The translations under genes and the position numbers were made by a program. DNA of 40,494 nt from a virus. Numbering within the stretch: position 1 is the first letter of the stretch; the number at the start of each line of letters is the position of its first letter. Below, in pieces: positions 1-40,494 of this stretch. The DNA is taken from IMG/VR virus record IMGVR_UViG_3300011116_000295, positions 1 through 40,494 of that record. One strand, 5' to 3'. Under the pieces are notes generated by a model, which saw only the letters and a list, made by a program, of their open reading frames with translations, did no database searches and had not been told where the DNA came from.

Positions 1-182
1 TTTATTGTCCTAATCCACGCCATTATCGCAAGAGATTACAATGGAGATACCGAATTAGAATAGATGGAGTTGTTTATGACGGATATGCAAAGACAGAGAA
101 GGAAGCCGCAAAAAACATCGACCTTATTTTAATTAGAAATGGGCGTGAGCCAATTAATATACTAAATAAAAAAGTTAGCTAA
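1..182 (+). CDS. AP2-like small DNA-binding protein, 5' truncated by the window edge
   Basis: The reading frame enters at the window edge (first full codon at base 3) and stops with TAA at 180-182. It is the second copy of the gene complete at 38161-38358, so about the first 7 residues are missing. The visible part has a basic CPNPRHYRKRLQWRYRIRI segment followed by a strand-strand-helix pattern ending in TEKEAAKNIDLILIRNG. This resembles the beta-sheet plus helix of AP2 DNA-binding domains, like the AP2 half of the adjacent endonuclease. The last 15 residues differ from the right copy. Its 3' end overlaps the convergent endonuclease gene by 8 bases. A DNA-binding role is inferred from fold resemblance only. 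Confidence 0.6.
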   Translation, partial: YCPNPRHYRKRLQWRYRIRIDGVVYDGYAKTEKEAAKNIDLILIRNGREPINILNKKVS

Positions 183-903
183 AATTAGTTTGCTTAGGTA
201 TATTCTTTGAGCAAGCTAAACAGAAGTCTTCTTTTCCGTCTTTAATTATTGCTAAATCTGGATGCTCACAAATGTCACCAATGGTTAATTTGCTATGTAT
301 GTGATAGTTTTCAATTTCTTTAATAGCTTGACTTTCATCCATATTATTGTCTTGTTTTTTAGTTAAAAAACTGGACAAATCGCTTATATCATTTAGCATA
401 GCAAACTCGCCATGATGCTTATGCGCAAATTCATTGTAAGCGATTGCGGCATCAATTTCTGTCTGGTAATGCCCAATAACCTTTTTCTTACCATCTATAA
501 CTATACTTGCTACCCATCTTGGGTTTCTCCGTATGGTTGTTTTAGTTGCTTTACTATAATACACATCCCTATGTAAATGAACCCCCTTATATTTAGATGT
601 GCAGTTTTGTTTTTTATGTCTATTCTGCTGATTTTGTGAGTTGTTGCACACCCTTATATTAGACCTTCTATTATCAAGACCGTTATGGTTTATGTGGTCA
701 ACAAATAGTTTATCTTGCTTTTTTAATCCCATTAATAACCTGTGCATTGGTAGTGAATATTGCCTACCGTCTTTGTAAGCACTGTTATAAGCATAAAATG
801 TGTTCCCTGATTTTTTAGCGCACCATTTGTATTTACTAACTAATTCAAGGTCTTCGTCATCAATTAGCGCAACTTTACCCTGTGTTAATTTTATTTCTTT
901 CAT
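175..903 (-). CDS. HNH homing endonuclease with AP2 DNA-binding domain and C-terminal extension
   Basis: 242 residues. Residues about 50-95 hold an HNH core (MHRLLMG, then VDHINHNGLDNRRSNIRV). Residues about 103-165 form an AP2-like domain (SKYKGVHL, then RWVASIVIDGKKKVIGHY and a DAAIAYNEFA helix). Such HNH-AP2 proteins are free-standing homing endonucleases common in phages. Compared with its allele at 38360-38884, this copy has about 70 extra C-terminal residues with a CEHPDLAIIKDGKEDFCLAC pair of cysteines. Met188 (codon at 342-340) could start that extension as a separate small protein. The gene lies alone on the minus strand behind its own promoter and structured leader, facing the late operon. 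Confidence 0.88.
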   Translation of the reverse strand: MKEIKLTQGKVALIDDEDLELVSKYKWCAKKSGNTFYAYNSAYKDGRQYSLPMHRLLMGLKKQDKLFVDHINHNGLDNRRSNIRVCNNSQNQQNRHKKQNCTSKYKGVHLHRDVYYSKATKTTIRRNPRWVASIVIDGKKKVIGHYQTEIDAAIAYNEFAHKHHGEFAMLNDISDLSSFLTKKQDNNMDESQAIKEIENYHIHSKLTIGDICEHPDLAIIKDGKEDFCLACSKNIPKQTNFS

Positions 904-1011
904 TTAAAAACACCCTCACCAATTACAAAGGCTATCCAGTCGGCAACAGTAAGTTGCAAAAGGCAATGTAAGAGGTGAGGGATTTTTTAATATTTTTCAT
1001 AACTGAATAGC
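904..1011 (-). ncRNA. Pseudoknotted 5' leader RNA, copy 1 (upstream of AP2/HNH endonuclease)
   Basis: Read on the minus strand, the transcript would begin with strand P1a (1011-1001), which pairs with 941-931 over 11 bp with two G-U pairs. P1b lies inside a second helix P2, whose arms CCCTCACC and GGTGAGGG (981-974 with 920-913) are perfectly complementary, so P1 and P2 form a pseudoknot. Inside P2 are a 5-bp extension (971-967 with 927-923), the conserved CATTGCC core (968-962) and a hairpin P3 (957-943, five pairs and five loop bases). The last helix ends 10 bases before the start codon. The same architecture with different helix sequences recurs at 7785, 8747 and 38885. Confidence 0.75.
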
Positions 1012-1014
1012 GAT

Positions 1015-1023
1015 GCAAATATA
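1015..1023 (-). promoter_or_regulatory. Bacteroidota-type -7 promoter element for the endonuclease transcript
   Basis: The minus strand reads TATATTTGC, matching the TAnnTTTG -7 element of Bacteroidota sigma-ABfr promoters. It sits 3 bases upstream of leader strand P1a, so the RNA 5' end would lie at the start of P1. The same box occurs at the same place before leader copies 2 and 4. No clear -33 element was identified. Confidence 0.6.
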
Positions 1024-1034
1024 ATAATTATATT

Positions 1035-1043
1035 TAACTTTGC
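1035..1043 (+). promoter_or_regulatory. Bacteroidota-type -7 promoter element for the lysis gene
   Basis: TAACTTTGC matches the TAnnTTTG consensus. It lies 31 bases upstream of the DUF5675 start codon and is conserved in the right allele at 39016-39024. It points opposite to the endonuclease promoter 12 bases away, so the intergenic region is a divergent promoter pair. Confidence 0.5.
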
Positions 1044-1073
1044 AAAACAACCAGTAAACATATTAGTAAAAAA

Positions 1074-1502
1074 ATGAACGCAACGATAAAAAGAACTTAC
1101 ACACCAACACAAACGGAGGGTATATTTAAACTCTTTGACGATGCAGGAAAACTTATTTTAACCTGTCATTCTTTAGAACTTCCTAATTTACAAAACCAAC
1201 GTCAAATATCCTGCATTTCAGAAGGCGTTTATGTAGTTAAAAAACATACATCGCCAAGTAAGGGGCTTTGTTTTAGCTTGCCAAACGTCCCGTTTAGGGA
1301 TAATATTCTAATTCATTCAGCTAACTATGTAGGTAGTAAAAACCCTGCAACGGGGCATTCAGATTTACTTGGGTGTATTGCTTTAGGAACGGGTTACGCA
1401 GATTTGAACGGTGACGGAATTAAAGACATCATAAATTCAAAGGCAACTATGAAAAAGCTGTTAGCTTTAACGGACGGGTTTAATCTTCAAATTTCAAGCT
1501 AA
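1074..1502 (+). CDS. DUF5675 family protein, probable lysis enzyme
   Basis: 142 residues. The sequence resembles DUF5675 phage proteins: an N-terminal RTYTPTQTEGIFKLFD strand pair, ISEGVYVVKKHTS, and a C-terminal block with ILIHSANYVGS, then LLGCIALGTG. The His...Gly-Cys pattern is reminiscent of YkuD-type L,D-transpeptidase folds, but catalytic activity is not established here. It occupies exactly the slot taken by an M15 endolysin of identical length in the right allele. It is followed by the same coupled 37-residue membrane protein and, further on, the same spanin-like pair. The lysis role is therefore inferred from position. The start is the first ATG after the promoter, and the stop overlaps the next start (TAATG). 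Confidence 0.75.
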   Translation: MNATIKRTYTPTQTEGIFKLFDDAGKLILTCHSLELPNLQNQRQISCISEGVYVVKKHTSPSKGLCFSLPNVPFRDNILIHSANYVGSKNPATGHSDLLGCIALGTGYADLNGDGIKDIINSKATMKKLLALTDGFNLQISS

Positions 1503-1615
1503 TGTCAATAGAAGCAGAACGCAGAGCCGACCAAGACCGCAACATCCGATTAGGGTGGGTTACTTTTCTATTTCTTTGCGTTGTGATTATGATAATGAAT
1601 ATGTCGGGGTGCTAA
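1502..1615 (+). CDS. 37-residue single-span membrane protein coupled to the lysis enzyme
   Basis: ATG at 1502 overlaps the stop of the DUF5675 gene, so translation is probably coupled. The protein has a charged N-terminus (MSIEAERRADQDRNIRLG), one membrane segment (WVTFLFLCVVIMIMNM) and ends Ser-Gly-Cys. The copy at 39469-39582 is nearly identical (IMIMNM becomes IIIMNL), although the upstream enzyme is unrelated. Together with mostly synonymous differences, this argues for a real gene. It could be a minimal holin or pinholin-like lysis accessory, which is inference. Its stop codon overlaps the first half of an attC-like site. Confidence 0.7.
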   Translation: MSIEAERRADQDRNIRLGWVTFLFLCVVIMIMNMSGC

Positions 1616-1667
1616 CAAAGCCTTTGCAAAATAAGGGGAACTTACTTCGCAAAGCCGACTGTTAGGT
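1610..1667 (+). repeat. attC-like site A
   Basis: Imperfect palindrome from TGCTAAC (1610-1616) to GTTAGGT (1661-1667), the latter a perfect GTTRRRY. The terminal TAACA pairs, an asymmetric AAGCC/GTCGGC region follows, and then a TTTGC-containing stem closes on a variable centre (AAGGGGAACTT). The arms are shared with the sites at 39577 and 40360 while the centres or ends differ. Arm mismatches are A-C on the plus strand and T-G on the minus strand, which favours folding of the bottom strand, as in integron attC sites. Confidence 0.65.
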
Positions 1668-1699
1668 GCAATATTTTTTAATTTTTTTGCCCACGCACT

Positions 1700-1721
1700 C
1701 GGTTTTTTCAAAACCGTTTTG
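1700..1721 (-). terminator. Hairpin after the methyltransferase gene
   Basis: CGGTTTT (1700-1706) and AAAACCG (1710-1716) form a perfect 7-bp stem with a three-base loop. On the minus strand it follows the methyltransferase stop directly and leads into an A/T-rich tail. It may terminate either strand, since T-rich tracts occur on both sides. Confidence 0.4.
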
Positions 1722-1722
1722 G

Positions 1723-2484
1723 TTAGAATAGTGTTTTATTCAATCTTTTGTTAGTTAATTCAATTGCCTTTGGGTTCAAATCACATCCAATAAATTTTCT
1801 ATTTAATTCTTTACACATTACCGCAGTAACTCCACTACCCATATAAAAATCAGCGACAACATCATTTTCATTACTACTTGCTTTTATAATCACTTCAAGT
1901 ATTTCCTTCGGCTTTTGTGTTAAATAATCAACCCATTCATCATTCTGCTTTGTATAATTCCCCTTCTTAACGGCATTTATAAACCATAAGTTTTCTCGCT
2001 GTTTGCCGTTTATATTTATTGTAATTCCTGCGTTTGCATATCCTTTTATTCTTCGATATGTATCTGGGTGGTGTGGTATCATTACCTTATCCAAATTTAA
2101 AGTATAGTTTTCCGTTTTGGTATAAATAATTATTTCATCTACAACGGTTTTAAATTTAGTTTTATGTTTTCCACCTGCATCGTATTTCCAATAAACAGTC
2201 TGTAAATATCTATCATACCCAAAAATATCATCCATAATTATTCTTAACCAATGTGATATTCTATAATCCATTTGTAAATAGATACTTCCAGTTTTCTTTA
2301 GAAGTCTGTGCATCTCTTTTATTCTTGGTATATAATGGGTTTCAATTTCACTCCGTATCGGTTTTAAATCTTGGTAGTCTGCAAACTTTCTACCAGTACC
2401 ATATAAAATGTCGCAATAAATCAAATCAATACTTTCGTTTTGAAGTTCCTGCATAAATTCTAAATTATCTCTACATACAATCAT
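1723..2484 (-). CDS. DNA N6-adenine or N4-cytosine methyltransferase (orphan, cassette cargo)
   Basis: 253 residues. Motif IV appears near the N-terminus as DILYGTG (residues 25-31), a DPPY-type loop in which Pro-Pro is replaced by Ile-Leu. Motif I appears near the C-terminus as ADFYMGSG (211-218), then FIGCDLNPKAIE. The IV-before-I order matches beta-class amino-methyltransferases (N6_N4_Mtase family). No restriction endonuclease is nearby, so the likely role is modifying phage DNA against host restriction (inference). The gene fills an attC-bounded cassette and is absent from the right allele. The DILY variant leaves target base and activity uncertain. Confidence 0.88.
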   Translation of the reverse strand: MIVCRDNLEFMQELQNESIDLIYCDILYGTGRKFADYQDLKPIRSEIETHYIPRIKEMHRLLKKTGSIYLQMDYRISHWLRIIMDDIFGYDRYLQTVYWKYDAGGKHKTKFKTVVDEIIIYTKTENYTLNLDKVMIPHHPDTYRRIKGYANAGITININGKQRENLWFINAVKKGNYTKQNDEWVDYLTQKPKEILEVIIKASSNENDVVADFYMGSGVTAVMCKELNRKFIGCDLNPKAIELTNKRLNKTLF

Positions 2485-2520
2485 AAAAAATCCCCCCTAA
2501 AAAAATTAAAAAATACAGAC

Positions 2521-2650
2521 ACCTAACACGTGCTATAAGCAATGCAGGGTTACTGCGTTCTTTAATGTTTGTACTATTTATTAACTTTATCATAATTTGA
2601 TAGTTTTGTGGTTTCTAATCCTGCACTGCTCATAGCACCATTTGTTAGCC
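2521..2650 (+). repeat. attC-like site B
   Basis: Starts ACCTAAC (2521-2527, perfect RYYYAAC) and ends GTTAGCC (2644-2650). The arms GTGCTATAAGCAATGCAGG and CCTGCACTGCTCATAGCAC pair almost throughout. Two of the differences are A-C on the plus strand but T-G on the minus strand. About 65 AT-rich bases form the variable centre. The last bases run into the stop codon of the spanin-like gene. Confidence 0.65.
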
Positions 2651-3060
2651 TACTTTACAAGGTAAAGCACCATACACGCAGCAGCAATCCCTGACACCGT
2701 CCAAAGTAACCCTTCCTTTAATCTGTTTTGCCTAATCTTTTTCTTTAGCTGCTTTTCAGCGGCTAACTTTTCAGCTTCGCAGGATTGAGTTAAAACTTTC
2801 GATATTTCTAAGTCATTGGCTAAAACTTTATTAATAGCCTCTAATTGCACGTTTGCGCTATTACAGGCATCAAAACCAACAGAAAGGGTATCATAAGCCT
2901 CACGACACATATCGCGGTCTATAAACGCACTAATTACAATATCTAACTCCTTTTCAGAAAGACACGTTAAAGTGTCCCCGTTATTTATTAAGGTAGTTTG
3001 CGAGTACGTTCTGCTTACCAGACAAAGGCAAAGCCAAAGCACTATCTTTAATTTGCACAT
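2650..3060 (-). CDS. Spanin-like protein with N-terminal signal sequence and C-terminal membrane segment
   Basis: 136 residues. An N-terminal hydrophobic segment (KIVLWLCLCLVS) ending in TYSQ looks like a signal peptide. It is followed by a long helical, probably coiled-coil region and a basic KKKIRQNRLKEG stretch, then a C-terminal span (LLWTVSGIAAACMVLYLVK). The C-terminal 30 residues are almost identical in the right-allele homologue (39634-40029), while the N-terminal half differs. Its start lies inside the preceding gene in another frame, an arrangement typical of Rz/Rz1 spanin pairs. Spanning topology and lysis function are inferred from position and architecture. Confidence 0.6.
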   Translation of the reverse strand: MCKLKIVLWLCLCLVSRTYSQTTLINNGDTLTCLSEKELDIVISAFIDRDMCREAYDTLSVGFDACNSANVQLEAINKVLANDLEISKVLTQSCEAEKLAAEKQLKKKIRQNRLKEGLLWTVSGIAAACMVLYLVK

Positions 3061-3310
3061 ATTTAATTTTGATTTTGATTATTTCTTTCGGTTTACTTTC
3101 TGCAATTTCTTTGAAGCGTTGGTAGCTCGCTGTTATATCAATCAGCATTAAGCTATCCTGCTCAATTTTATTTAACAGATATTCGCGCTCAGTGTTGGGT
3201 GGTGCTATGCTTACAGGGTTGCAGTTAATAACTTTTACTACTAATCCGATAATAACAATCATCAGGACTGCAAAGATAATAATTAGGTAGTTTTTTTTGA
3301 TAAATTTCAT
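2981..3310 (-). CDS. Spanin-like protein with N-terminal membrane anchor
   Basis: 109 residues. A single N-terminal span (YLIIIFAVLMIVIIGLVVKV) is followed by a periplasmic-type region: PPNTEREYLLNKIEQDSLML, then a helical segment rich in Lys and Glu. This is the layout of an inner-membrane spanin (Rz-like). The last 80 bases overlap the following gene in a different frame. The right allele has a homologue (39935-40279) with the NTEREYLL region conserved and a divergent C-terminus. The sequence TAACTTTAC sits directly before the ATG, a weak -7-like element. Family membership is not certain. Confidence 0.6.
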   Translation of the reverse strand: MKFIKKNYLIIIFAVLMIVIIGLVVKVINCNPVSIAPPNTEREYLLNKIEQDSLMLIDITASYQRFKEIAESKPKEIIKIKIKYVQIKDSALALPLSGKQNVLANYLNK

Positions 3311-3371
3311 TTTGTAAAGTTAGTTAATTTTTCTGCCACCGCACCCAAAATTCAGCGAAAGGCTGAACTTC

Positions 3372-3435
3372 GGATAACGGTCAATTTACTCAATTCTTCT
3401 GCTTCGCAAGAACAGCGTAAATTTTTGCGTTATAT
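3372..3435 (+). repeat. attC-like site C
   Basis: Palindrome from GGATAAC (3372-3378) to GTTATAT (3429-3435). Paired blocks, outside to inside, are ATAACG/CGTTAT, AATTTAC/GTAAATT and TTCTT/AAGAA, separated by unequal unpaired stretches (GTC opposite four bases on the other arm). This block-and-spacer plan matches R and L boxes of attC sites. Cleavage at G3429|T3430 would start cassette 2. Confidence 0.55.
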
Positions 3436-3509
3436 GCCATTGCCGTGCTTCGTAGCAAGCATTATCGGAACTTCTCTTTTTTTGTTTTAAATAATTTTTG
3501 CCCACGCTC

Positions 3510-4442
3510 TTAAAAAAATAAAGACGGTTGTTGTTTAATCAAATCGGTTCTGTCATTCGCCATTTTCGTATAGCGTTCTTCAATTTCAAATCCAATAAAG
3601 TTTCTGTTTTCTTTCACACACATTGCACACTCTGTTCCACTTCCTGCAAATGGTATCAGCACTAAATCCTTTTCTCTGCTGCAAGTTAATATTAACGCTC
3701 TGGTCAATGTTTCGGGCTTGCAGGTATCGTGGTCGTAATTGCCTGTAATGTGTGCCTCTTGGTCAAACTTCATCACATCATACAGTTTCATAAAGTTGTT
3801 GAATGGTCGTCTCAATGTTTCGTATTCTGTCCTCAGTGTTTCGTATTCTTTTTTATCTGGGTTCGGTATTAAATTGTATTGGTATTCAGTAATCATTTGC
3901 GGTTTGTGGCTTCTTTGGCTCAAAATATTATTTGCGTTTTGTTTTGCACTTTCAGAATTTCGGCAGTTGCCTGTTTGCAATAATATTTCTGCAAGTTCAT
4001 TTCGTGTTGTAATGGTTGCCAAATAATCCTGAATGTATTTAATTGATAACCGAACATTATCGTGGTAATCATCGCCAACGCTATACATCAGCAGTCGTTC
4101 ACTCACGGGAGCAAAGCATCTAAATTCTTCAACACCTTTTTTGGTTTGGCGGTTAAATTCAATAGTGATATTGTTTTCTAAATTCAAAAGTTTGTCAAAA
4201 ATTATTTGCGTATATGCTATTTTCTTTGCGTGTCCATACCAAAATAATGTTCCATTATCAGCAAGCACCCGCTTACATTCCTTTGCCCACAGTTCCACCT
4301 GTTGCAAGTATTCATCAAAGGTTTTCCAAATGAAATCAAACTCTCCCTTCACTTCAAAGTAAGGTGGGTCAGCAATTATCAACTGCACCGATTTATCAGG
4401 CAATGTATTATTCATCCAGTCGGTATTAAATACTGTATTCAC
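3510..4442 (-). CDS. DNA methyltransferase with DPPY motif (orphan, cassette cargo)
   Basis: 310 residues. Motif IV is ADPPYF (residues 24-29), and motif I is FAGSGT (265-270) followed by FIGFEIEERY, the order seen in beta-class N6-adenine/N4-cytosine methyltransferases. The middle (about 110-235) is a large target-recognition-like insert containing a duplicated YETLR heptad (KEYETLRTEYETLRRPF). No cognate nuclease is seen. The gene overlaps the upstream 78-residue gene by 17 bases, so both are probably cotranscribed. It probably protects phage DNA against restriction (inference). It is not related closely to the other cassette enzyme and is missing from the right allele. Confidence 0.9.
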   Translation of the reverse strand: MNTVFNTDWMNNTLPDKSVQLIIADPPYFEVKGEFDFIWKTFDEYLQQVELWAKECKRVLADNGTLFWYGHAKKIAYTQIIFDKLLNLENNITIEFNRQTKKGVEEFRCFAPVSERLLMYSVGDDYHDNVRLSIKYIQDYLATITTRNELAEILLQTGNCRNSESAKQNANNILSQRSHKPQMITEYQYNLIPNPDKKEYETLRTEYETLRRPFNNFMKLYDVMKFDQEAHITGNYDHDTCKPETLTRALILTCSREKDLVLIPFAGSGTECAMCVKENRNFIGFEIEERYTKMANDRTDLIKQQPSLFF

Positions 4443-4662
4443 TTATCAATTCGTTTTTTATGTTTCCATTGCTTGCTTGTTCTATTGTCATTCCACATAC
4501 TTTGCAAAATCCATCTTTATCAAAATCGTGAGTTCCTTTTTCAAGTCCTCCTTCCCAATCAGGATATAAGCAGTCAGATAATTTGCCTGTCCATTGTGGC
4601 TCTTGTCCTCTTTCAAGCATCAGTTTGTAAAGTTGTTGTTGTGTCATAATATTTTTTTTCAA
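4426..4662 (-). CDS. Small zinc-finger-like protein preceding the methyltransferase
   Basis: 78 residues. I recognise no named family. It contains HDFDKDGFCKVCGMTIEQA, where His plus CxxC could bind zinc, and a WTGKLSDCLYPDWEGG segment. Its end overlaps the methyltransferase start by 17 bases, suggesting translational coupling and a joint role as cassette cargo. Met6 (MTQQQLYK) is an equally plausible start. No function is assigned. Confidence 0.55.
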   Translation of the reverse strand: MKKNIMTQQQLYKLMLERGQEPQWTGKLSDCLYPDWEGGLEKGTHDFDKDGFCKVCGMTIEQASNGNIKNELISEYSI

Positions 4663-4752
4663 AAAATTAAAAGATTAAAACCCCTCCCTAAAAAATTATT
4701 TAAAACAAAAAAGGGTTCATCGCTTCGTAGGAACGACAGTGGGAGCAACGGC

Positions 4753-4845
4753 ATATAACAACGGATTAAATGAAATTTAAAAAAATCTTTTCTCATTTTT
4801 TATTTTGGTATTTTTTTAAACTTCATTAATCCGCAACCGTTATAC
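4753..4845 (+). repeat. attC-like site D
   Basis: Runs from ATATAAC (4753-4759) to GTTATAC (4839-4845). The arms CGGATTAAATGAA and TTCATTAATCCG pair with one extra A in the 5' arm, an extrahelical base as in attC L boxes. They continue through TTTAAAAAAAT/ATTTTTTTAAA into a variable centre. The one substitution inside the arms is A-C on the plus strand and T-G on the minus strand. The 3' half overlaps the stop codon of the downstream 54-residue gene. Confidence 0.6.
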
Positions 4846-5004
4846 TCTAAACCCGTCCGCCTCACCCTGCCATTTTACTTTTAGTTCTGGCTTGCGACTT
4901 TTCGGCACTCTAATAGTCAAATTATCGGACGGCTCACCGAACTTCAACTTAGCACCTGCGCCCGGACGTTTACCGCCACTTCCTTTTTTTCTTGCTTTTT
5001 TCAT
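4840..5004 (-). CDS. 54-residue basic protein, possible DNA-binding regulator
   Basis: ATG at 5004-5002, stop TAA at 4842-4840. The basic N-terminus KKARKKGSGGKRPGAGAKLK contains an AT-hook-like GGKRPGAGAK stretch. FGEPSDNLTIRVPKSRKPEL follows, a pattern seen in small phage proteins where the LTIRVP strand may begin a ribbon-helix-helix fold. The 3' part is repeated at the window end (40437-40494) with mostly silent changes, showing selection on the protein. It is the last gene of the early operon, just outside the cassette array. The regulatory role is inferred. Confidence 0.6.
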   Translation of the reverse strand: MKKARKKGSGGKRPGAGAKLKFGEPSDNLTIRVPKSRKPELKVKWQGEADGFRV

Positions 5005-8179: not shown

Positions 8180-8746
8180 TTAATTAAAATATCTTAATGA
8201 TGTTTTATTAGTTCGTGTCCCTACTAAGTAATGTATTAAAGTAGATTTTTTTATTCCTAAAATATTACAAGCATCGGTAGCACTTTTGTATATAATATTT
8301 GTATTTATATCAATAACCTGTTTACTATTAATATTTCTTAGTTTTTCTTTATGCCAGTTACTTTGAACCATTTTAGGATAAAGTCCCATAGCCCTTGCAT
8401 GGCGTATGTTTTCTAAAGATGTTACCCACTCTAAATTATTTACGTTGTTATCAGACTTATCACCATTTATATGATTTATCTCGCGCTTGTTATCTAAATT
8501 AACTAAAAACGCTTGCGCTACTATCCTGTGAACCCTACGCATTTCATCTTTACCTTTGTTTTGTAACCTAACACGTTTATACCCCCTTTCAGTTGCAGGT
8601 GCAAGAATTATCTCTTTTGTATAGTAAGTGTAATTCCCGCTTTTATTAAAGCATCTTTTTAGCTTCTTGCAGCTTTTTACTTTTCCTGTGTTACTAACTT
8701 TATAACACCCTTCAAATCCAATAACATCTTTCCAAATTTCTTCCAT
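8180..8746 (-). CDS. NUMOD4/HNH homing endonuclease
   Basis: 188 residues with three recognisable parts. An N-terminal NUMOD4 module (EEIWKDVIGFEGCYKVSNTG, 2-21) comes first. An HNH_3-type core follows (VHRIVAQAFL about 72-81, then INHINGDKSDNNVNNLEWVT). A C-terminal NUMOD1-like helix-turn-helix (IYKSATDACNILGIKKSTLI) ends the protein. These are free-standing homing endonucleases that insert next to phage genes. It has its own pseudoknot leader and promoter, although AP2/HNH copies elsewhere share only the leader and not the protein family. Confidence 0.92.
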   Translation of the reverse strand: MEEIWKDVIGFEGCYKVSNTGKVKSCKKLKRCFNKSGNYTYYTKEIILAPATERGYKRVRLQNKGKDEMRRVHRIVAQAFLVNLDNKREINHINGDKSDNNVNNLEWVTSLENIRHARAMGLYPKMVQSNWHKEKLRNINSKQVIDINTNIIYKSATDACNILGIKKSTLIHYLVGTRTNKTSLRYFN

Positions 8747-8851
8747 TTTAAAATACCTGCCAAACGCAAAGACTTACCCACGCTGTTGCGGATGCAACAA
8801 ATGGCAATGCGAATGACAGGATTTTTTAATATTTTTCATGCGTGAGTAAGT
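8747..8851 (-). ncRNA. Pseudoknotted 5' leader RNA, copy 4 (upstream of NUMOD4/HNH endonuclease)
   Basis: P1 pairs 8851-8840 with 8783-8772 over 12 bp (minus strand ACTTACTCACGC with GCGTGGGTAAGT, one wobble). P2 is CCTGTC with GGCAGG (8820-8815 with 8761-8756), with an inner 4-bp helix (8811-8808 with 8768-8765). The CATTGCC core lies at 8809-8803 and hairpin P3 (GTTGC-ATCC-GCAAC) at 8798-8785. The linker ATGAAAAATATTAAAAAATC is shared with copies 1 and 2. Confidence 0.75.
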
Positions 8852-8854
8852 GCT

Positions 8855-8863
8855 GCAAATATA
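8855..8863 (-). promoter_or_regulatory. -7 promoter element for the NUMOD4/HNH transcript
   Basis: The minus strand reads TATATTTGC, three bases upstream of leader strand P1a, as in copies 1 and 2. It sits against the 3' end of the ninG coding region. Confidence 0.55.
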
Positions 8864-8864
8864 A

Positions 8865-9428
8865 CTATTTTTTAAACGCTGCAACAAGTTTTGAATATTT
8901 ATTTTTAATTTCAATCAATTCCTGTTTACTGTATTTGTAATTTCTATGCGTTTCTTTTTTACTTTCTAAGTCGTTTAGATATTCAACCCCGTAACGAACT
9001 ATAAGTCCTTCCCTGTAATCTAAAAGCCGACCACCCTCAAAGCGGTTACATTTTTGGCAGGAAGCATGGCAATTCATTTCATTAAAAATAAGTCCACTAA
9101 ACTGATTAGCGTTGTAGTAATGTGAACCGTCCGAAGTTGGAATAGTAATTTTCGCCCCACAAGAAATACAATTATAGCCTTTTGAATTATCTCTAATCCT
9201 AATCCAGTGCTGAAAAAATACTTTTGCTTCCTTTTCATATTCACCAAGTGTTTTCAGTTTATCTTTCAAAACTTTCTTTTCTTCGCGCCACTCTTTATTC
9301 TGCTTTTTATCCGTTTGAACTTTCGACCATGCGGCAAAGGCTTTTATACATTCATCACTATCCATGCAGAACTTTTGTAAAAAGTAACGCGGGACAAACT
9401 TGTTTTTGCAGTTCTTACATCGTGGCAT
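8865..9428 (-). CDS. ninG: NinG-like recombination endonuclease
   Basis: 187 residues, matching lambda NinG (Rap) in length and layout. There is an N-terminal zinc-binding pair (CKNCKNKF, then FCMDSDEC), a basic helical region (about 40-85) and the core CISCGAKI, DGSHYYNANQFSGLIF, NCHASCQKCNRFEGG. NinG proteins help resolve recombination intermediates. Here it closes the recombination set ERF annealase plus YqaJ nuclease. Its first 14 bases overlap the upstream gene. Confidence 0.9.
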   Translation of the reverse strand: MPRCKNCKNKFVPRYFLQKFCMDSDECIKAFAAWSKVQTDKKQNKEWREEKKVLKDKLKTLGEYEKEAKVFFQHWIRIRDNSKGYNCISCGAKITIPTSDGSHYYNANQFSGLIFNEMNCHASCQKCNRFEGGRLLDYREGLIVRYGVEYLNDLESKKETHRNYKYSKQELIEIKNKYSKLVAAFKK

Positions 9429-9759
9429 TACGCTCAGATTTTAAGTAGCTTATATTTGTTCTTATTGCACCGATAACCTCATACGAACTATTCATTTTGT
9501 GCCTTAATAAATACATCAATGGAAATTCAATGTGCGCTTGGTTTTCTGCTCTTGCAACAGAATTACCATCAGAAACTAATTTAGACACTAATATTTGCCA
9601 TTCATTATGAACTTCCGACCTAACGCCCTCAAGGTAGTGTAATGTGCCTGAAATCTCTCGTAAAAGTTCGTTTAGCCTATTACCTTCTAAAACTTCCATT
9701 TGTCGGTATTCCTTTACACATTCGTCTATGTGTTTTATTGCCTGTTGTTCTGCTGTCAT
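9415..9759 (-). CDS. Hypothetical early protein, helical
   Basis: 114 residues, no family recognised. It is predominantly helical with heptad-like spacing (CVKEYRQMEVLEGNRLNELL and a C-terminal IGAIRTNISYLKSE). It overlaps both neighbours by a few bases (ninG downstream, T5orf172 gene upstream), which supports translation within the recombination operon. Confidence 0.6.
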   Translation of the reverse strand: MTAEQQAIKHIDECVKEYRQMEVLEGNRLNELLREISGTLHYLEGVRSEVHNEWQILVSKLVSDGNSVARAENQAHIEFPLMYLLRHKMNSSYEVIGAIRTNISYLKSERNATM

Positions 9760-26819: not shown

Positions 26820-27470
26820 ATGAACATCAAAGAAAAAATTAAAGAACTTTTAGGGGCGGAGAAATTCGCAGCTATTGAAAATCTTATTAAATCTTCTTTT
26901 TCAGAAGTCGTTGCTAAAGATGGCAGCGTAATAAAATACGAAGGTGATTTAAAATCTGGTACTGCTGTTTTTGTATCTACTCCTGACGGGGACGTTGCAG
27001 TACCTGACGGTGTTGTAGAATTAGAGGACGGTACTATGTTAGAAGTTGCAGCAGGGGTAATCGTAACAGTTACGCCAAGCGCAGACCAAGCGGCAGCAGC
27101 CAACGAAGTTCCTACCAACGACACCAATGCAGAAGCAATGACAGTAGAACAAATGGGTACAGCATTAAGTGACCTGTTTGCGAAAGTGGAAGCACTTACA
27201 AATACCGTTGCAGAGTTGCAGGGGAAATTCAGCGAAGCACCAAAAGAAGATATTAACGCAAAGATTGAAGAAGCAATCAATAATTTGAAAACATCTGAAC
27301 TTTCTAAGATTAGCTCGGACTTTAAAGTTATGGCAGAACTAATCAATGAGATTGGTGATTTGCCGGTAGGTGAACCAAAAGAAAAGGAACAAAACTTTTC
27401 AAGCGCAACAGATAAAAAGACAAAACGAATTTTAGAATTATCAAAAAGCATTAACAATTTAAAAAAATAA
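26820..27470 (+). CDS. Capsid scaffold-like protein
   Basis: 216 residues from ATG 26820; an upstream TTG at 26787 is in frame but lies within the end of the protease gene. The protein is acidic and helical, with an Ala/Glu-rich region (VEQMGTALSDLFAKVEALTN, then TVAELQGKF) and a basic C-terminal tail (DKKTKRILELSKSINNLKK), as in scaffolding proteins that dock to the capsid by a positive C-terminus. Its position between protease and major capsid gene supports this. No sequence family is identified. Confidence 0.65.
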   Translation: MNIKEKIKELLGAEKFAAIENLIKSSFSEVVAKDGSVIKYEGDLKSGTAVFVSTPDGDVAVPDGVVELEDGTMLEVAAGVIVTVTPSADQAAAANEVPTNDTNAEAMTVEQMGTALSDLFAKVEALTNTVAELQGKFSEAPKEDINAKIEEAINNLKTSELSKISSDFKVMAELINEIGDLPVGEPKEKEQNFSSATDKKTKRILELSKSINNLKK

Positions 27471-27473
27471 ACA

Positions 27474-28406
27474 ATGGGATTTACAACATCTTCACTAACA
27501 GACTACGTTGACCAAACATCAACCGACCTCTTAACCGCCACGCAATTTGCGGGCGAAACTGCCGCAATGATGAACCTGCAAACAGGTATCAAAAGTTCAG
27601 CAGCACTTCAACTATTATCAACAAATGCAGTACCACAAGCGGGCGAAACTTGCGGATTTAACGCATCAGGAGATGTAACTTTCTCACAAAGAAATCTTGC
27701 TACCGTTGCTATTAAATTTCAAGACACTCTTTGCCCTCGTGCGCTGCAAGCTAAATGGACGCAAGTTCTTTTGAAAAAAGGTCAGCAAATTTCAGAAAGC
27801 GACATTCCGAAAGTGATTGTAGATAATATCGTTGGTGGTATTAAACAACGTTTGGAAACTGCTGACTGGCAGGGTGACACCGCTTCTCCTTCTGCTTACT
27901 TAAATCTTTACGACGGTTTGATTAAAACTATTGTAAATGCAACAGGTGAGGTAGTAGCAACAGCATCAACTTACAACACTGCAAACTGCCGCACTATTGT
28001 AGCAAATATTATCAGCAACATACCAGCAGCTTTGAAAGGCAATGGAGCAGTAAAAATATTCATGGGTTATGACGCAGTAGAAGTATATCGTCAAAAATTA
28101 ATGAACGATAACCTTTACCACGTACCGGCCGGAAGCGCAGACCAGAAAGGAATTATGGCAGAGGGTTCAGTACACGAAATAGTACCAGTACACGGATTGG
28201 ATGGATTGTATGCAACAGCTACACAAAATTGTATTTTCGCTTTCAACCCGGATAATGTTTTCTTGGGTGTTGACATGGAAAACGAAGAAGAAACCTTCAA
28301 AATGTGGATGTCACAAGATGACGACAATGTGAAGTACTCAGTACGTTTCCGCAGAGGCTGGCAGATTGCATACCCTACCGAAATCGTTAGATATGCTAAC
28401 TCTTAA
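27474..28406 (+). CDS. Major capsid protein
   Basis: 310 residues. Layout fits an HK97-fold capsid of Bacteroidota phages: N-terminal helix (DYVDQTSTDLLTATQFAGET), an E-loop-like region, then FQDTLCPRALQAKW and a P-domain helix with DIPKVIVDNIVGGIKQRLE. The C-terminal block is EETFKMWMSQDDDNVKYSVR, then FRRGWQIAYPTEIV. Gene order protease-scaffold-capsid and the intrinsic terminator directly after it, expected for a highly expressed gene, support the call. Confidence 0.85.
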   Translation: MGFTTSSLTDYVDQTSTDLLTATQFAGETAAMMNLQTGIKSSAALQLLSTNAVPQAGETCGFNASGDVTFSQRNLATVAIKFQDTLCPRALQAKWTQVLLKKGQQISESDIPKVIVDNIVGGIKQRLETADWQGDTASPSAYLNLYDGLIKTIVNATGEVVATASTYNTANCRTIVANIISNIPAALKGNGAVKIFMGYDAVEVYRQKLMNDNLYHVPAGSADQKGIMAEGSVHEIVPVHGLDGLYATATQNCIFAFNPDNVFLGVDMENEEETFKMWMSQDDDNVKYSVRFRRGWQIAYPTEIVRYANS

Positions 28407-28420
28407 TAATTAACTAACTC

Positions 28421-28460
28421 AAAGAGAGGGGCGGGAATTAAAGCCCGCCTTTCTTTTTTA
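28421..28460 (+). terminator. Intrinsic terminator after the major capsid gene
   Basis: GGCGGG and CCCGCC (about 28430-28449) form a GC-rich stem around AATTAAAG, extended by AAAG/CTTT, and followed by TTTCTTTTTT. This is a classic hairpin plus U-tract that could uncouple capsid expression from downstream genes. Confidence 0.8.
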
Positions 28461-28474
28461 AAACAAAATAAACA

Positions 28475-28984
28475 ATGGCATGTTCACTTACAGTTGGCTA
28501 CTCACTCGGATGTAGAACGTCTGTTGGCGGTGTGGAATGGGTATCATTCTTAGCTTACGGAAACAAAGGATCAGTAACAGCAGCATCAGGAACGGTGACG
28601 GCATGGACTGTTGGCGGTGGTCAGTTCTTTAAATACGAACAAGAAGAAGAAGTTTCAGAAGCAACAAGCAACGAAACACTTTCAAGACCTAACGGCACTA
28701 TCTTTTATGCTCAAGAAGTTAAACTTGCAATTAACGGTTTGACTGCTGCTTTACGTCAGGAATTAAAACTACTTGCACAGAATAGACTAATTGCAATCGT
28801 AAAGATGCGTGACGGTCAATCATGGGCTTTTGGTTTAGACTATGGATTGATGAAATCAGCACAGGCTTCTAAGTCTGGATTAGCTTTCGGGGATAGAAAT
28901 GGTTATGAGATGACATTTTCTGGTAACGAAGCAAACGACATTCAGTTAGTAACGACTTCTGTAATAACTTCATTAGGATTGTAA
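28475..28984 (+). CDS. Major tail tube protein (probable)
   Basis: 169 residues, beta-rich, low in Lys/Arg. VGGVEWVSFLAYGNKGSV, then KYEQEEEVSEATSNETL, and a C-terminal GYEMTFSGNEANDIQLV resemble tail-tube proteins. It sits between two terminators, as expected for a separately and strongly expressed structural gene, directly after the capsid gene. The function is inferred from size, composition and position. Confidence 0.65.
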   Translation: MACSLTVGYSLGCRTSVGGVEWVSFLAYGNKGSVTAASGTVTAWTVGGGQFFKYEQEEEVSEATSNETLSRPNGTIFYAQEVKLAINGLTAALRQELKLLAQNRLIAIVKMRDGQSWAFGLDYGLMKSAQASKSGLAFGDRNGYEMTFSGNEANDIQLVTTSVITSLGL

Positions 28985-28989
28985 ATAAT

Positions 28990-29000
28990 TATTATATTTG
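28990..29000 (+). promoter_or_regulatory. -7 promoter element upstream of a short transcript
   Basis: TATATTTGC (28992-29000) matches the Bacteroidota -7 consensus just after the tail tube gene, and about 40 bases before a strong terminator. Transcription from here would yield a short RNA. Confidence 0.45.
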
Positions 29001-29035
29001 CAGAATTAACGTTCTTTATATAATCTGGTTTTTAG

Positions 29036-29067
29036 AAAAGCCCTTGCAATTTGCAGGGGTTTTTTTA
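29036..29067 (+). terminator. Intrinsic terminator after the tail tube gene
   Basis: CCCTTGCA and TGCAGGGG pair around ATT, followed by seven T. With the terminator at 28421 this brackets the tail tube gene. Confidence 0.8.
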
Positions 29068-29069
29068 TT

Positions 29070-29078
29070 ATGTTTGCA
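29070..29078 (+). promoter_or_regulatory. -7 promoter element before the next structural operon segment
   Basis: TATGTTTGC matches TAnnTTTG and lies 2 bases before ATG 29081. The terminator just upstream makes a new promoter necessary, and the short distance implies a leaderless or nearly leaderless mRNA. Confidence 0.55.
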
Positions 29079-29080
29079 CA

Positions 29081-29359
29081 ATGAACCCTTTTCAAGTTCC
29101 TATTGAATTATCTTTTAATCCACAGGCGAGGCATGAAGCGGGAAGTAATCACCCTACCTGGGTAATGGCTACACAAGTAAAATGGGTACTAAAGCCACTA
29201 TTAAGAATAAGGCGAGATTACGAAGTATGTAAGAATAACCCTGACTTAATACGCTTTTACTTTAACGGTACTACAACGATTGAAAGTATTGAGAAAATGA
29301 TAAAAGAATACGAAGAAAAACTAAATCAATTTATTAATGAAAATACTTTTAGTATATAA
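29081..29359 (+). CDS. Hypothetical structural-region protein
   Basis: 92 residues from ATG 29081. The frame is open further upstream but only through the terminator. It contains PIELSFNPQARHEAGSNHPT and a helical C-terminus (SIEKMIKEYEEKLNQF). It overlaps the following glycosyltransferase by 23 bases. No family is recognised. A small tail chaperone or connector protein is possible. Confidence 0.55.
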   Translation: MNPFQVPIELSFNPQARHEAGSNHPTWVMATQVKWVLKPLLRIRRDYEVCKNNPDLIRFYFNGTTTIESIEKMIKEYEEKLNQFINENTFSI

Positions 29360-30365: not shown

Positions 30366-30384
30366 CTTTCTTATATTTACTATT

Positions 30385-30774
30385 ATGCTTAGTATTGTTA
30401 AGGCTTCCGCTAATACCATTGTAGTAACACTTGCTGAAAAGACTACATTAACGGGGACTGTTTATTATTTGTGGAAGTTTGTAAACGACCAGGATGGAAG
30501 TATTGACTATTGCATAGCAACTGATTTAAGTTCTTATACATATCGATATAATAAGTTTACGATTACTGAGCAGGCAAACCCGACATCACTAAGCGGACAG
30601 GTTTCTTTACAAACAGGCTTTGGTAAGTATTATATTTATGAACAGGCAAGTAGCACAAGTTTAGACCCTACTGGCAAGACCTTAGTAGAACAGGGTAAAT
30701 ACTTAGTCACCACAACACTACCTACCGAATACAATCACACCGTAACAACTAACGAATACGTTTACAATGGCTAA
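30385..30774 (+). CDS. Hypothetical structural protein
   Basis: 129 residues from ATG 30385; an upstream in-frame start falls within the preceding gene. Beta-rich (NTIVVTLAEKTTLTGTVYYL, YLVTTTLPTEYNHTVTTNEY) and without Cys except one. It lies directly before the portal gene with an 8-base overlap, so a virion component is likely. Resembles no family I can name. Confidence 0.55.
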   Translation: MLSIVKASANTIVVTLAEKTTLTGTVYYLWKFVNDQDGSIDYCIATDLSSYTYRYNKFTITEQANPTSLSGQVSLQTGFGKYYIYEQASSTSLDPTGKTLVEQGKYLVTTTLPTEYNHTVTTNEYVYNG

Positions 30775-32644: not shown

Positions 32645-32645
32645 G

Positions 32646-35727: not shown

Positions 35728-35732
35728 TTAAT

Positions 35733-35741: not shown

Positions 35742-35744
35742 AAC

Positions 35745-35993: not shown

Positions 35994-35994
35994 C

Positions 35995-37370: not shown

Positions 37371-37375
37371 AATTT

Positions 37376-38164: not shown

Positions 38165-38358
38165 AAAGCAGATACGCCAATGTTTATTGTCCTAATCCAC
38201 GCCATTATCGCAAGAGATTACAATGGAGATACCGAATTAGAATAGATGGAGTTGTTTATGACGGATATGCAAAGACAGAGAAGGAAGCCGCAAAAAACAT
38301 CGACCTTATATTAATTCGGAATGGGAAACATCCAGTTAATGTTCTGAAGTCTAAATAG
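38161..38358 (+). CDS. AP2-like small DNA-binding protein (complete copy)
   Basis: 65 residues, starting in a 4-base overlap with the exonuclease stop. The basic half has PRHYRKRLQWRYRIRIDG, then VVYDGYAKTEKEAAKNIDLI, a strand-strand-helix AP2-like pattern. It is nearly identical to the truncated copy at 1-182 up to residue 52, then diverges. It faces the HNH endonuclease with one intervening base. Possibly the DNA-targeting partner of one of the neighbouring nucleases, which is inference. Confidence 0.65.
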   Translation: MKSRYANVYCPNPRHYRKRLQWRYRIRIDGVVYDGYAKTEKEAAKNIDLILIRNGKHPVNVLKSK

Positions 38359-38359
38359 C

Positions 38360-38884
38360 TTATATAATTACATTTATACAGGCAAAGTCACCGTAATGTT
38401 TTATGGCGGCGGCATTGTATACAAGCGCAGCTTCTTTTTCTGTTTTAAACGAACCAAGCCTTTTTTGCTTCCCATTTACCTGTATAAGTGCGCCCCATTT
38501 TGGTTTATAATAAGACCATTCTCCAGTTGTAATCTTAAAATATTTTTTAGTAAATAAATAAACCCCCTTATAAATTGAAGTCATTGGTTTGTGCTTTTTC
38601 CTATTTTGTGCGTTTTGCGAAACGGTGCAAATTCTAATATTCTCACGTCTATTATCTAATACATTGTGATTTATGTGGTCAACAATTTTCTTATCGCCAA
38701 ACTCACACCCTAAAATAAGCCTGTGCATTTGAATAGCCTTTTGTTTTTTATTTACTGATACCATTCTACTTGCATAAGCCTCAACACCTACTCCGCTTAC
38801 ACCCCATTTCCATTGATTTACCCATTCATAATCAGCATCATCAACTAATGCAATCATTCCATTTGTTAATTTTATTTCTTTCAT
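38360..38884 (-). CDS. HNH homing endonuclease with AP2 domain (right allele)
   Basis: 174 residues. HNH core: MHRLILG, VDHINHNVLDNRRENIRI. AP2 part: IYKGVYLF, then PKWGALIQVNGKQKRLGSFK and TEKEAALVYNAAA. Homologous to 175-903 along its whole length but ending at GDFACINVII, without the 70-residue extension. It has the same leader RNA and promoter layout. The presence of two alleles of a homing endonuclease on the same locus fits its mobility. Confidence 0.9.
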   Translation of the reverse strand: MKEIKLTNGMIALVDDADYEWVNQWKWGVSGVGVEAYASRMVSVNKKQKAIQMHRLILGCEFGDKKIVDHINHNVLDNRRENIRICTVSQNAQNRKKHKPMTSIYKGVYLFTKKYFKITTGEWSYYKPKWGALIQVNGKQKRLGSFKTEKEAALVYNAAAIKHYGDFACINVII

Positions 38885-38992
38885 TTAAAAATACCCACAC
38901 CAATTACAAAGGCTATCCAGTCGGCAACAGTGAGTTGCAAAAGGCAATGTAAGAGGCGAGGGATTTTTTAATATTTTTCATAACTGAATAGC
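38885..38992 (-). ncRNA. Pseudoknotted 5' leader RNA, copy 2 (right allele)
   Basis: P1 pairs 38992-38982 with 38922-38912; P2 pairs 38962-38955 with 38900-38893 with one mismatch and one wobble relative to copy 1. The core CATTGCC lies at 38949-38943 and hairpin P3 (15 bases, five pairs) at 38938-38924. Most of this leader is identical to copy 1, whereas copies 3 and 4 differ in all helices. Confidence 0.75.
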
Positions 38993-38995
38993 GTT

Positions 38996-39004
38996 ACAAA
39001 TATA
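38996..39004 (-). promoter_or_regulatory. -7 promoter element for the right-allele endonuclease
   Basis: The minus strand reads TATATTTGT, three bases before P1a, as in copy 1. Confidence 0.55.
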
Positions 39005-39015
39005 ATAATTATATT

Positions 39016-39024
39016 TAACTTTGC
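39016..39024 (+). promoter_or_regulatory. -7 promoter element for the M15 endolysin
   Basis: TAACTTTGC, conserved with 1035-1043; 19 bases upstream of ATG 39044. The lysis gene in both alleles is thus under the same promoter despite unrelated coding sequences. Confidence 0.5.
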
Positions 39025-39043
39025 ATTATAATAGTATAAAAAA

Positions 39044-39472
39044 ATGATAAAACAATATAAAGCAAGCCACTTTGAGGGTATCTGTAACGTAGATGAAGAC
39101 TTTTTCCCTATGTTAGACCAAATGAACTACATTGCACAAAATCACAATATGATAGTTGTGGTTACATCCTCATTCCGATTAGACACAAATGTAAAAGGCG
39201 CTATCGTACCACCATCAAAGCGTTCTAATCATTTAATCGGGCAAGCTATCGACTGTAATGTTAAAAATAAAAGAACAGGAGAATACTATAATTCCACAAA
39301 GATGGGTGATGGGAAAGGCGAAGATGAATTATTTTTAAAAGACGTTGATGAAAAAACTCCACTACGCTGGGGTGTGGCATTTAATAATCCAGACAGCGTT
39401 CATTTTGATAGCGGGCTGAATTTAAAGAACCCTCAATTATGGCAGGAGAAATATGATAAATATCACAAATGA
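39044..39472 (+). CDS. M15-type peptidoglycan peptidase (endolysin)
   Basis: 142 residues. SNHLIGQAIDCNV (61-73) gives zinc ligands His63 and Asp70. W109 and SVHFDSG (118-124) with His120 give the third ligand and catalytic acid position, as in D-Ala-D-Ala carboxypeptidase/L-Ala-D-Glu endopeptidase-type (Peptidase_M15) endolysins. SSFRLDT (42-48) is the usual arginine-containing substrate loop. No signal peptide, so a holin is needed. It replaces the DUF5675 gene at the same slot with exactly the same length (429 bases) and is coupled by ATGA to the same 37-residue membrane protein. Confidence 0.9.
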   Translation: MIKQYKASHFEGICNVDEDFFPMLDQMNYIAQNHNMIVVVTSSFRLDTNVKGAIVPPSKRSNHLIGQAIDCNVKNKRTGEYYNSTKMGDGKGEDELFLKDVDEKTPLRWGVAFNNPDSVHFDSGLNLKNPQLWQEKYDKYHK

Positions 39473-39582
39473 GTATAGAAGCAGAAAGACGAGCCGACCA
39501 AGACCGCAACATCCGATTAGGCTGGGTTACGTTTCTATTCCTTTGCGTTGTGATTATAATAATGAATTTGTCTGGGTGCTAA
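39469..39582 (+). CDS. 37-residue single-span membrane protein (right allele)
   Basis: Starts within the endolysin stop (ATGA). Same sequence as 1502-1615 except two conservative changes in the membrane segment (FLFLCVVIIIMNL). DNA differences are mostly at third positions, so the protein is under selection. Its stop overlaps the attC-like site that follows. Confidence 0.7.
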   Translation: MSIEAERRADQDRNIRLGWVTFLFLCVVIIIMNLSGC

Positions 39583-39634
39583 CAAAGCCTTTGCAAAATA
39601 AGGGGAACTTACTTCGCAAAGCCAACTGTTAGCC
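39577..39634 (+). repeat. attC-like site A' (right allele)
   Basis: Identical to site A except one base in the 3' arm (GCCAACT versus GCCGACT) and the bases after G|TT: here GTTAGCC followed by the spanin gene, as after site B in the left allele. This is the predicted empty target for cassette 1. Confidence 0.65.
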
Positions 39635-40029
39635 TACTTAACCAAGTAAAGCACAATTAGAGCAGCGGCAACTCCAGACACCGTCCATAGTAACCCTTCC
39701 TTTAATCTGTTTTGCCTAATCTTTTTCTTTAGCTGCTTTTCAACGGCTAACTTTTCTTCCTCAATCCCTTTTGCTACTACTTTTGCGCTTTCTAAATCAT
39801 TTAACAGCGTTTCATTTGCTTTTGATAGATATGCTTCACTTTCTAATAAAGCATCGTAAGACACGCTTAAAGTATCTAATTGAAGTTTACACCCGTCCGC
39901 AAATACTTTAGTCTGATTAGCAACGTTTATTTGCTCAATAGTGAATTGCTGGGCGTGAAGTCCACTCATTGAAATAATTAACAGACTGAATGCTGTCAAA
40001 ATTTGCCACGCTGTCTTGTTTTTGTACAT
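39634..40029 (-). CDS. Spanin-like protein, right allele (signal sequence plus C-terminal span)
   Basis: 131 residues. Signal-type N-terminus (ILTAFSLLIISMSGLHAQQ), coiled-coil middle (LLESEAYLSKANETLLNDLE) and the same basic C-terminus as the left copy (EKQLKKKIRQNRLKEGLLWT) followed by a membrane span. No lipobox cysteine is visible. Its start overlaps the preceding gene in another frame. Function as for the left homologue is inferred. Confidence 0.6.
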   Translation of the reverse strand: MYKNKTAWQILTAFSLLIISMSGLHAQQFTIEQINVANQTKVFADGCKLQLDTLSVSYDALLESEAYLSKANETLLNDLESAKVVAKGIEEEKLAVEKQLKKKIRQNRLKEGLLWTVSGVAAALIVLYLVK

Positions 40030-40279
40030 AGATTGTTTTATATTTAATTACTACTTTTTGTTTACTTTCTGCAATTTCCTTAAACTTAATATAGCTCGCT
40101 GTTATATCAATCAGCATTAAACTATCCTGCTCAATCTTATGCAACAAGTATTCGCGCTCAGTGTTGGGTGGCACTATGCTTACAGGATTATTATTTAAAA
40201 CTTTTACAGTTAGCCCGATTATAAAGCATAACAGTATAAAGCAGATTATTTGTAGGTAGTAGGTTTTTATGAAGTTCAT
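39935..40279 (-). CDS. Spanin-like protein, right allele (N-terminal anchor)
   Basis: 114 residues. N-terminal span (YLQIICFILLCFIIGLTVKV), then VPPNTEREYLLHKIEQDSLM, conserved with 2981-3310, and a divergent C-terminal tail. It overlaps the following gene by 95 bases in a different frame. The box TACCTTTGC on the minus strand, directly upstream of the ATG, is a good -7 element, so this pair may have its own leaderless promoter. Confidence 0.6.
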   Translation of the reverse strand: MNFIKTYYLQIICFILLCFIIGLTVKVLNNNPVSIVPPNTEREYLLHKIEQDSLMLIDITASYIKFKEIAESKQKVVIKYKTIYVQKQDSVANFDSIQSVNYFNEWTSRPAIHY

Positions 40280-40359
40280 TTTGCAAAGGTATTAAATTAA
40301 GTTTAGTTATTTTAAGTTAGGTAGTGCTTTTATTTTTCAGGTTGTGTAGTTATTTTTAG

Positions 40360-40442
40360 CGATAACAAAGCCTTTGCAAAATCGCTCAATGCCTCCATTT
40401 ACAGTTAGTCTATACGCGACTTCGCAAAGCCGACTGTTATAT
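40360..40442 (+). repeat. attC-like site D' (right allele)
   Basis: CGATAAC (40360-40366) to GTTATAT (40436-40442). The arms AACAAAGCCTTTGCAAAAT and ACTTCGCAAAGCCGACTGTTA are identical to those of site A, but the centre is a different, longer sequence of about 36 bases that can itself form a stem (CGC...GCG). Conserved arms with variable terminal structure are characteristic of attC families. Confidence 0.65.
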
Positions 40443-40494
40443 TCTAAACCCGTCCGCCTCACCCTGCCACTTAACTTTTAGTTCTGGCTTCCGA
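40437..40494 (-). CDS. 3' end of 54-residue basic protein, truncated by the window edge
   Basis: The minus strand reads RKPELKVKWQGEADGFRI then stop (40439-40437), matching the C-terminus of the gene at 4840-5004 (final Val replaced by Ile). Only the last 18 codons are inside the window. It shows that sequence beyond the right edge would continue into the early operon. Confidence 0.7.
   Translation of the reverse strand, partial: RKPELKVKWQGEADGFRI

Follow-up and report, generated by a model that had tools for sequence, protein, structure and literature searches.

A probable mobile attC cassette array without integrase, carrying DNA methyltransferase genes, in a tailed Bacteroidota phage

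Results and discussion

The virus record IMGVR_UViG_3300011116_000295 of IMG/VR was analysed over its whole length of 40,494 bases (referred to as the window; coordinates count from base 1), and near its left end an array of gene cassettes was found that are bounded by palindromic sites of the integron attC type and carry orphan DNA methyltransferase genes. This array is very probably a cluster of attC sites lacking integrase (CALIN) in a tailed Bacteroidota phage, with a host enzyme that probably acts in trans and a cargo that may be directed against restriction. Gene and family annotation showed that terminase, structural and lysis-region genes are all encoded in the record. A tyrosine recombinase was detected neither in the window nor in 15 other array-bearing or comparison records, while two integron-bearing control phages were positive.

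A cassette of this array is a unit bounded by G|TT, comprising one or two genes, mostly for an orphan DNA methyltransferase, together with one attC site. Excision and insertion would proceed by recombination at the G|TT of attC, with the folded minus (bottom) strand as a single-stranded substrate. As the phage has no recombinase gene of its own, the infected host is the most likely source of the enzyme, and the best candidate is an integrase-like tyrosine recombinase encoded next to matching attC arrays in Chitinophagales and Flavobacteriaceae chromosomes. The cargo would change the methylation of the phage DNA and thereby permit escape from different host restriction systems.

Structure of the attC sites and cassette boundaries

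Four palindromes with AAC...GTT cores are located between 1607 and 4848 (sites A to D; Table 1). They possess RYYYAAC / GTTRRRY-like ends, paired inner arms and unpaired spacers, and the same ends and inner arms occur in two sites at the right end of the record. A geometry finder for palindromes with these cores (score of at least 12.4; controls, 100 dinucleotide shuffles) returned six sites in the window, every one an array site, in comparison to a mean of 0.93 in the shuffles. Two covariance models were built, R1 from 26 phage sites and, independently, R2 from 26 chromosomal sites of Bacteroidota bacteria only. R2 scored three of the four palindromes (A, B and D) as well as the two right-end sites, each on the minus strand, and on the plus strand B alone (18.5 bits). 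In the alignment of the phage sites, compensatory changes were present in 13 of 14 stem pairs, and covariation reached 0.756, whereas slid structures did not exceed 0.132. Folding was more stable on the minus strand at all six sites of the window, as is expected of attC bottom strands. Judged by sequence and predicted folding, A, B and D are integron attC sites. An R1 search of six non-Bacteroidota genomes gave no matches, and R2 found none of the attC sites of Vibrio, Shewanella or Tetrasphaera phages. A.C mismatches of the plus strand are common to the stems of all phage sites (e.g. 1607-1670) and correspond to G.T wobbles on the minus strand; this asymmetry may decide which strand folds.

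The ends of the cassettes are linked pairwise, i.e. the R' of one site is the exact 8-base complement of the R'' of the next. In the window, GTTAGGTG at 1661 complements CACCTAAC, whose last base is 2527, and GTTATATG at 3429 complements CATATAAC, whose last base is 4759, both exactly over eight bases; none of 100 dinucleotide shuffles contained such matches. Among all sites compared, 26 of 36 adjacent pairs showed 8/8 linked ends, versus 14 of 206 other pairs. Both methyltransferase units thus run from G|TT to G|TT and start with the complement of the R'' of their own attC site (8/8). The unit with two spanin-like open reading frames (ORFs) between them is not supported as a third cassette, because its ends match in six of eight positions only and it is present in relatives; it is probably part of the phage backbone. 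The first-pass annotation of this DNA had described the four palindromes, an extrahelical base at site D, two units starting as exact reverse complements of their own terminal sites, orphan DNA methyltransferases in both (here PF01555 matches) and the lack of an integrase in the window, and all of these observations were confirmed.

Filled and empty alleles at the same locus

By block realignment, positions 38183-40494 match 1-4897 with 70-94% identity; therefore, the contig ends are two divergent alleles of one locus in a circular genome of about 38.2 kb, the assembly having run beyond the start of the circle into a variant, so that both alleles stand on one contig. An independent contig (L145), 99.8% identical to 27376-39317, speaks for the junction with the right-end allele. 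This second allele, with its two further attC sites at 39574-39637 and 40357-40445, had been overlooked in the first-pass annotation. The methyltransferase-1 cassette is missing from it, and if 1662-2644 of the left allele is omitted, an ungapped alignment of 274 bases spans the joint exactly at G|TT. Cassette 2 is missing as well, and one attC site stands in its place.

Precise gain or loss was likewise observed in related phage contigs. Downstream of site A, the relatives contain different cassettes or none. In L146, another cassette with a PAPS-reductase-like gene at 8555-9430 (named by eye) uses the same G|TTAGCC joint as methyltransferase 1 of the window, whereas L018 lacks both cassettes. 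In L020, site A is retained but the bases that follow G|TT differ, and beyond the spanin-like ORFs three more methyltransferase-like genes, identified by eye, lie between attC sites; L021 has a multi-cassette array, also with methyltransferase-like genes. The cassette junctions in the related alleles and phages lie exactly at G|TT, so that the test named in the first-pass annotation as a refutation, methyltransferase junctions away from this point, was passed. Near-identical phage DNA was not found in the annotated phage collection.

Cassette movement in lytic Flavobacterium phages

The Baltic Flavobacterium phages of Lillamyvirus and Muminvirus, described as virulent (Nilsson et al. 2020, PMC7077304), possess homologous methyltransferases in long arrays with the same attC type as the window. 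Pairs of isolates that are otherwise near-identical show differences in whole cassettes. Between lillamy9-1 (L001) and lillamy9-7 (L046), one cassette of 439 bp has changed its place, being located at about 5638 in one genome and at about 2038 in its counterpart; both the cassette and 3.6 kb of adjacent sequence are 100% identical. The same 439-bp cassette was lost in sniff9-2 (L047) in comparison to sniff9-1 (L048), and another cassette was lost in mumin6-4 (L051) in comparison to mumin6-2 (L053). All breakpoints in the lillamy, sniff and mumin phages fall at GTT. In 16 phages (including L001 at about 2031), the left border of the array does not vary as far as TATTGTAG|, after which six different first cassettes follow. 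In these integrase-free phages, the constant end appears to behave as an attI-like entry site. As the joints of the Flavobacterium phages share only five to seven bases, homologous recombination is not an easy explanation for these rearrangements.

Orphan methyltransferases predominate among the cargo. According to Nilsson et al. (2020, PMC7077304), all LMO9 phages that plate poorly on LMO6 lack a specific methyltransferase, and their passage test names lillamy9-1 and morran9-1. A methyltransferase cassette of 843 bp, flanked by attC, was present in every LMO6-isolated phage examined and absent from lillamy9-1 and morran9-1. The plating on LMO6 would thus fit an anti-restriction cargo, provided that this cassette carries the gene in Table S13 of PMC7077304.

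Orientation of the cassette genes

In textbook cassettes, the gene reads toward its own attC site. Such a sense orientation, which is usual but not strict, was found neither in the window nor in the related phages, a feature that the first-pass annotation had overlooked. In chromosomal arrays, 22 genes were sense and none antisense to their own attC, whereas in Bacteroidota phage arrays 37 were antisense and 2 sense, both of the latter outside arrays. Since the base-exact exchange includes the right-hand stem in the mobile unit, the antisense polarity is not an error of orientation. The converse assignment, a minus-strand array with sense genes, was rejected: stem A keeps its left place in both alleles of the window while the new stem enters on the right, the lillamy cassette takes its right-hand stem along, and R2 scores the minus strand as the bottom strand. 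One might speculate that the antisense polarity results from selection for co-direction with phage transcription.

Putative host recombinase

The window fits the definition of a CALIN, which calls for two or more attC sites no further than 4 kb apart and no intI nearby. It is not a complete integron with intI and attI, as the record covers the full circle without IntI and an attI site was not identified in it. With R1, the same attC type was detected in 92 of the 150 genomes of Chitinophagales searched and in 116 of the 150 of Flavobacteriaceae; among the latter, weak single matches may be false. The chromosomal arrays often lie downstream of a gene for a tyrosine recombinase of about 345-406 amino acids, and an integrase-like gene and an array occurred on one contig in at least 14 genomes. 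The first site follows the end of the recombinase gene after 824 bp (L111), 430 bp (L112), 1.8 kb (L113), 1.9 kb (L115), 2.7 kb (L119) and, in the Flavobacteriaceae locus L138, 832 bp.

These integrase-like recombinases lack the columns of the IntI additional domain and possess an N-terminal extension. They reach 182-204 bits with the IntI family TIGR02249 (cut-off 265), and their best NCBI family is NF040815 (191-223 bits; cut-off 220). In a quick integrase tree, whose small number of outgroups does not allow the clade to be placed, the candidates group apart from IntI. They are possibly a separate class of integron integrase. A candidate attI site was detected in L112 at about 10640, 254 bases past the stop codon of the integrase-like gene (...TATATACAAG|TTATGTG), and is complementary to the first attC site; it was the only clean candidate in the search after integrase-like genes, in which the choice of the core AAC may be wrong for some loci. 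The integrase-like enzyme may act on the phage attC sites.

Weighing of the explanations

Several observations weigh against a mobile CALIN served by a host integrase. The opposite polarity in phages and chromosomes indicates that the phage cassettes are not just drawn from the usual ones of the hosts. A terminase search for the host in 398 Chitinophagales genomes gave one match only, with 32% identity. A canonical IntI was found neither in 399 Flavobacteriaceae genomes (controls positive) nor in 16 array-bearing Chitinophagales genomes; therefore, the recombinase of the host would have to be either the candidate integrase-like enzyme or a further one. For recombination at these sites, the evidence consists of natural junctions at G|TT. 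Site C was scored neither by R1 nor by R2, so that the covariance-model check proposed in the first-pass annotation came out positive for A, B and D and negative for C. The idea of that annotation, a mobile CALIN with a host integrase in trans, nevertheless fits the data, the recombinase step being the conditional part of it. It could also be that the sites are true attC relics and that the present variation is due solely to homologous recombination between co-infecting phages, anchored on attC stems or flanking genes. The alleles differ in lysis and HNH genes too, with conserved blocks between them, which is a typical pattern of such exchange, and the stems of some sites are nearly identical, 20-21 bases being common to A and the right-end site. 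However, the new place of the fully identical lillamy cassette shares only about seven bases with its source, differing first cassettes meet the constant site at the same base, and the pairwise linkage of adjacent ends would not be expected; this explanation is considered improbable. Far less credit is given to a role of the palindromes as transcription terminators or RNA elements with no relation to integrons. They form hairpins between minus-strand genes, but a model made from chromosomal attC sites scores them, their ends are linked pairwise, gain and loss boundaries lie inside them at G|TT, and Rfam at gathering thresholds gave no match within the window.

Another question is which enzyme would move a mobile array. 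A canonical IntI of a rare host, or XerC/D, instead of the integrase-like enzyme would be in agreement with the report that attC sites of the Polaribacter phage P12002L are substrates of IntI1 in E. coli (PMC9892861), and many phages infect several strains. This is opposed by the failure to find canonical IntI in the genomes mentioned above. XerC/D-like genes match the integrase-like query at about 110-122 bits and, among the matches listed, none adjoins an array, unlike the integrase-like genes. An IntI or Xer enzyme is therefore rather unlikely, though clearly less so than homologous exchange alone. Beyond the mobile CALIN with a host enzyme in trans, we tentatively propose, with slightly less than even confidence, that Bacteroidota phages keep a cassette pool of their own with reversed polarity, which would be exchanged via a non-canonical host integrase without the IntI additional domain and in which the methyltransferases would form an anti-restriction repertoire.

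Comparison with known systems

The first-pass annotation knew of no established case in tailed phages, which is wrong, as CALINs were reported in 17 phages, with methyltransferase cassettes in the Polaribacter phage P12002L (Qi et al. 2023, PMC9892861). The window belongs to this published kind. It shares with P12002L the integrase-less attC array in a lytic Bacteroidota phage and the DNA methyltransferase cargo, and methyltransferase 1 is 51% identical to one methyltransferase of P12002L. Of two P12002L sites tested, one was active with IntI1 (PMC9892861). In contrast to P12002L, filled, empty and relocated cassettes were seen here between natural variants, and the Bacteroidota attC family described here scores weakly in P12002L (25.8 bits). 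Lillamyvirus and Muminvirus resemble the window in attC type, antisense polarity, methyltransferase cargo and lack of a tyrosine recombinase, but differ in their longer arrays and the attI-like constant entry site; the main text of PMC7077304 does not mention integrons or cassettes. The chromosomal arrays of Chitinophagales and Flavobacteriaceae have the same attC type, and R2 derived from them finds the phage sites, whereas their genes are sense and an integrase-like recombinase without the IntI domain adjoins them. Canonical integrons (class 1, Vibrio) likewise have R''/R' cores, the G|TT joint and a more stable bottom strand, but differ by an IntI with the additional domain, an attI site and sense genes.

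Reviews count Bacteroidota among the integron phyla. In the literature covered, which was incomplete, no description was found of cassette movement between natural variants, of the reversed polarity, of the candidate enzyme or of this Bacteroidota attC family, nor of a published Bacteroidota integron with such an enzyme; the Flavobacterium phages may be among the CALINs of PMC9892861. Phage CALINs have so far been known from single genomes, and natural alleles now show movement in lytic phages without a recombinase. The acquisition of anti-restriction genes by such viruses thereby becomes directly testable, and a published plating difference is linked to a cassette-borne methyltransferase. The findings also point to a Bacteroidota integron integrase that would be missed by searches requiring the IntI domain.

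Additional features of the locus

The coordinates of all features are compiled in Table 1. The two spanin-like ORFs gave no match in family searches.

Table 1. Features of the cassette array, of the second allele and of chromosomal loci with integrase-like genes.
Feature	Position	Strand	Remarks
attC site A	1607..1670	+ (top strand)	cut point G1661|T1662; R2 30.6 bits, minus strand
Cassette 1, 983 bp (methyltransferase-1 gene and attC B)	1662..2644		absent from right-end allele; 8/8 end match
Methyltransferase 1, orphan N6/N4 DNA methylase, antisense to own attC	1723..2484	-	PF01555, E 5.5e-44
attC site B, borne by cassette 1	2518..2653	+	R2 79.4 bits minus (E 1e-16) vs 18.5 plus
Unit with two small spanin-like ORFs and site C	2645..3429		6/8 end match; also in relatives and right-end allele
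Two spanin-like ORFs	2650-3060, 2981-3310	-	assigned from location and shape alone
Site C, weak attC-like palindrome	3369..3438	+	finder score 12.9
Cassette 2, 1410 bp (78-amino-acid ORF, methyltransferase 2, attC D)	3430..4839		8/8 end match; absent in right-end allele and L018
Methyltransferase 2, orphan N6/N4 DNA methylase	3510..4442	-	PF01555, E 5.3e-35
78-amino-acid ORF of cassette 2	4426..4662	-	no match in family searches
attC site D, one extrahelical base	4750..4848	+	R2 30.5 bits, minus strand
Second allele of 1-4897, without either methyltransferase cassette	38183..40494	+	block identity 70-94%; L145
attC A of right-end allele, empty site of cassette 1	39574..39637	+	R2 28.7 bits
Sole attC of right-end allele, at the place of C, cassette 2 and D of the left allele	40357..40445	+	R2 31.4 bits
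Integrase-like tyrosine recombinase, L111	3275-4414		by large chromosomal attC array
Integrase-like tyrosine recombinase, L112	9349-10386		by large chromosomal attC array
Integrase-like tyrosine recombinase, L113	7945-9165		by large chromosomal attC array
Integrase-like tyrosine recombinase, L115	4603-5640		by large chromosomal attC array
Integrase-like tyrosine recombinase, L138	276-1208		by large chromosomal attC array

Beside the cassettes, a lysis-region gene differs between the two alleles, with DUF5675 at 1074-1502 and an unrelated gene at 39044-39472, and the HNH endonucleases differ between the left and the right-end allele as well. A contig binned with a Chitinophagales genome (L056, 1-12768) has a phage-like look and, along its 12.8 kb, contains about ten genes for DNA methyltransferases, with attC sites between them.

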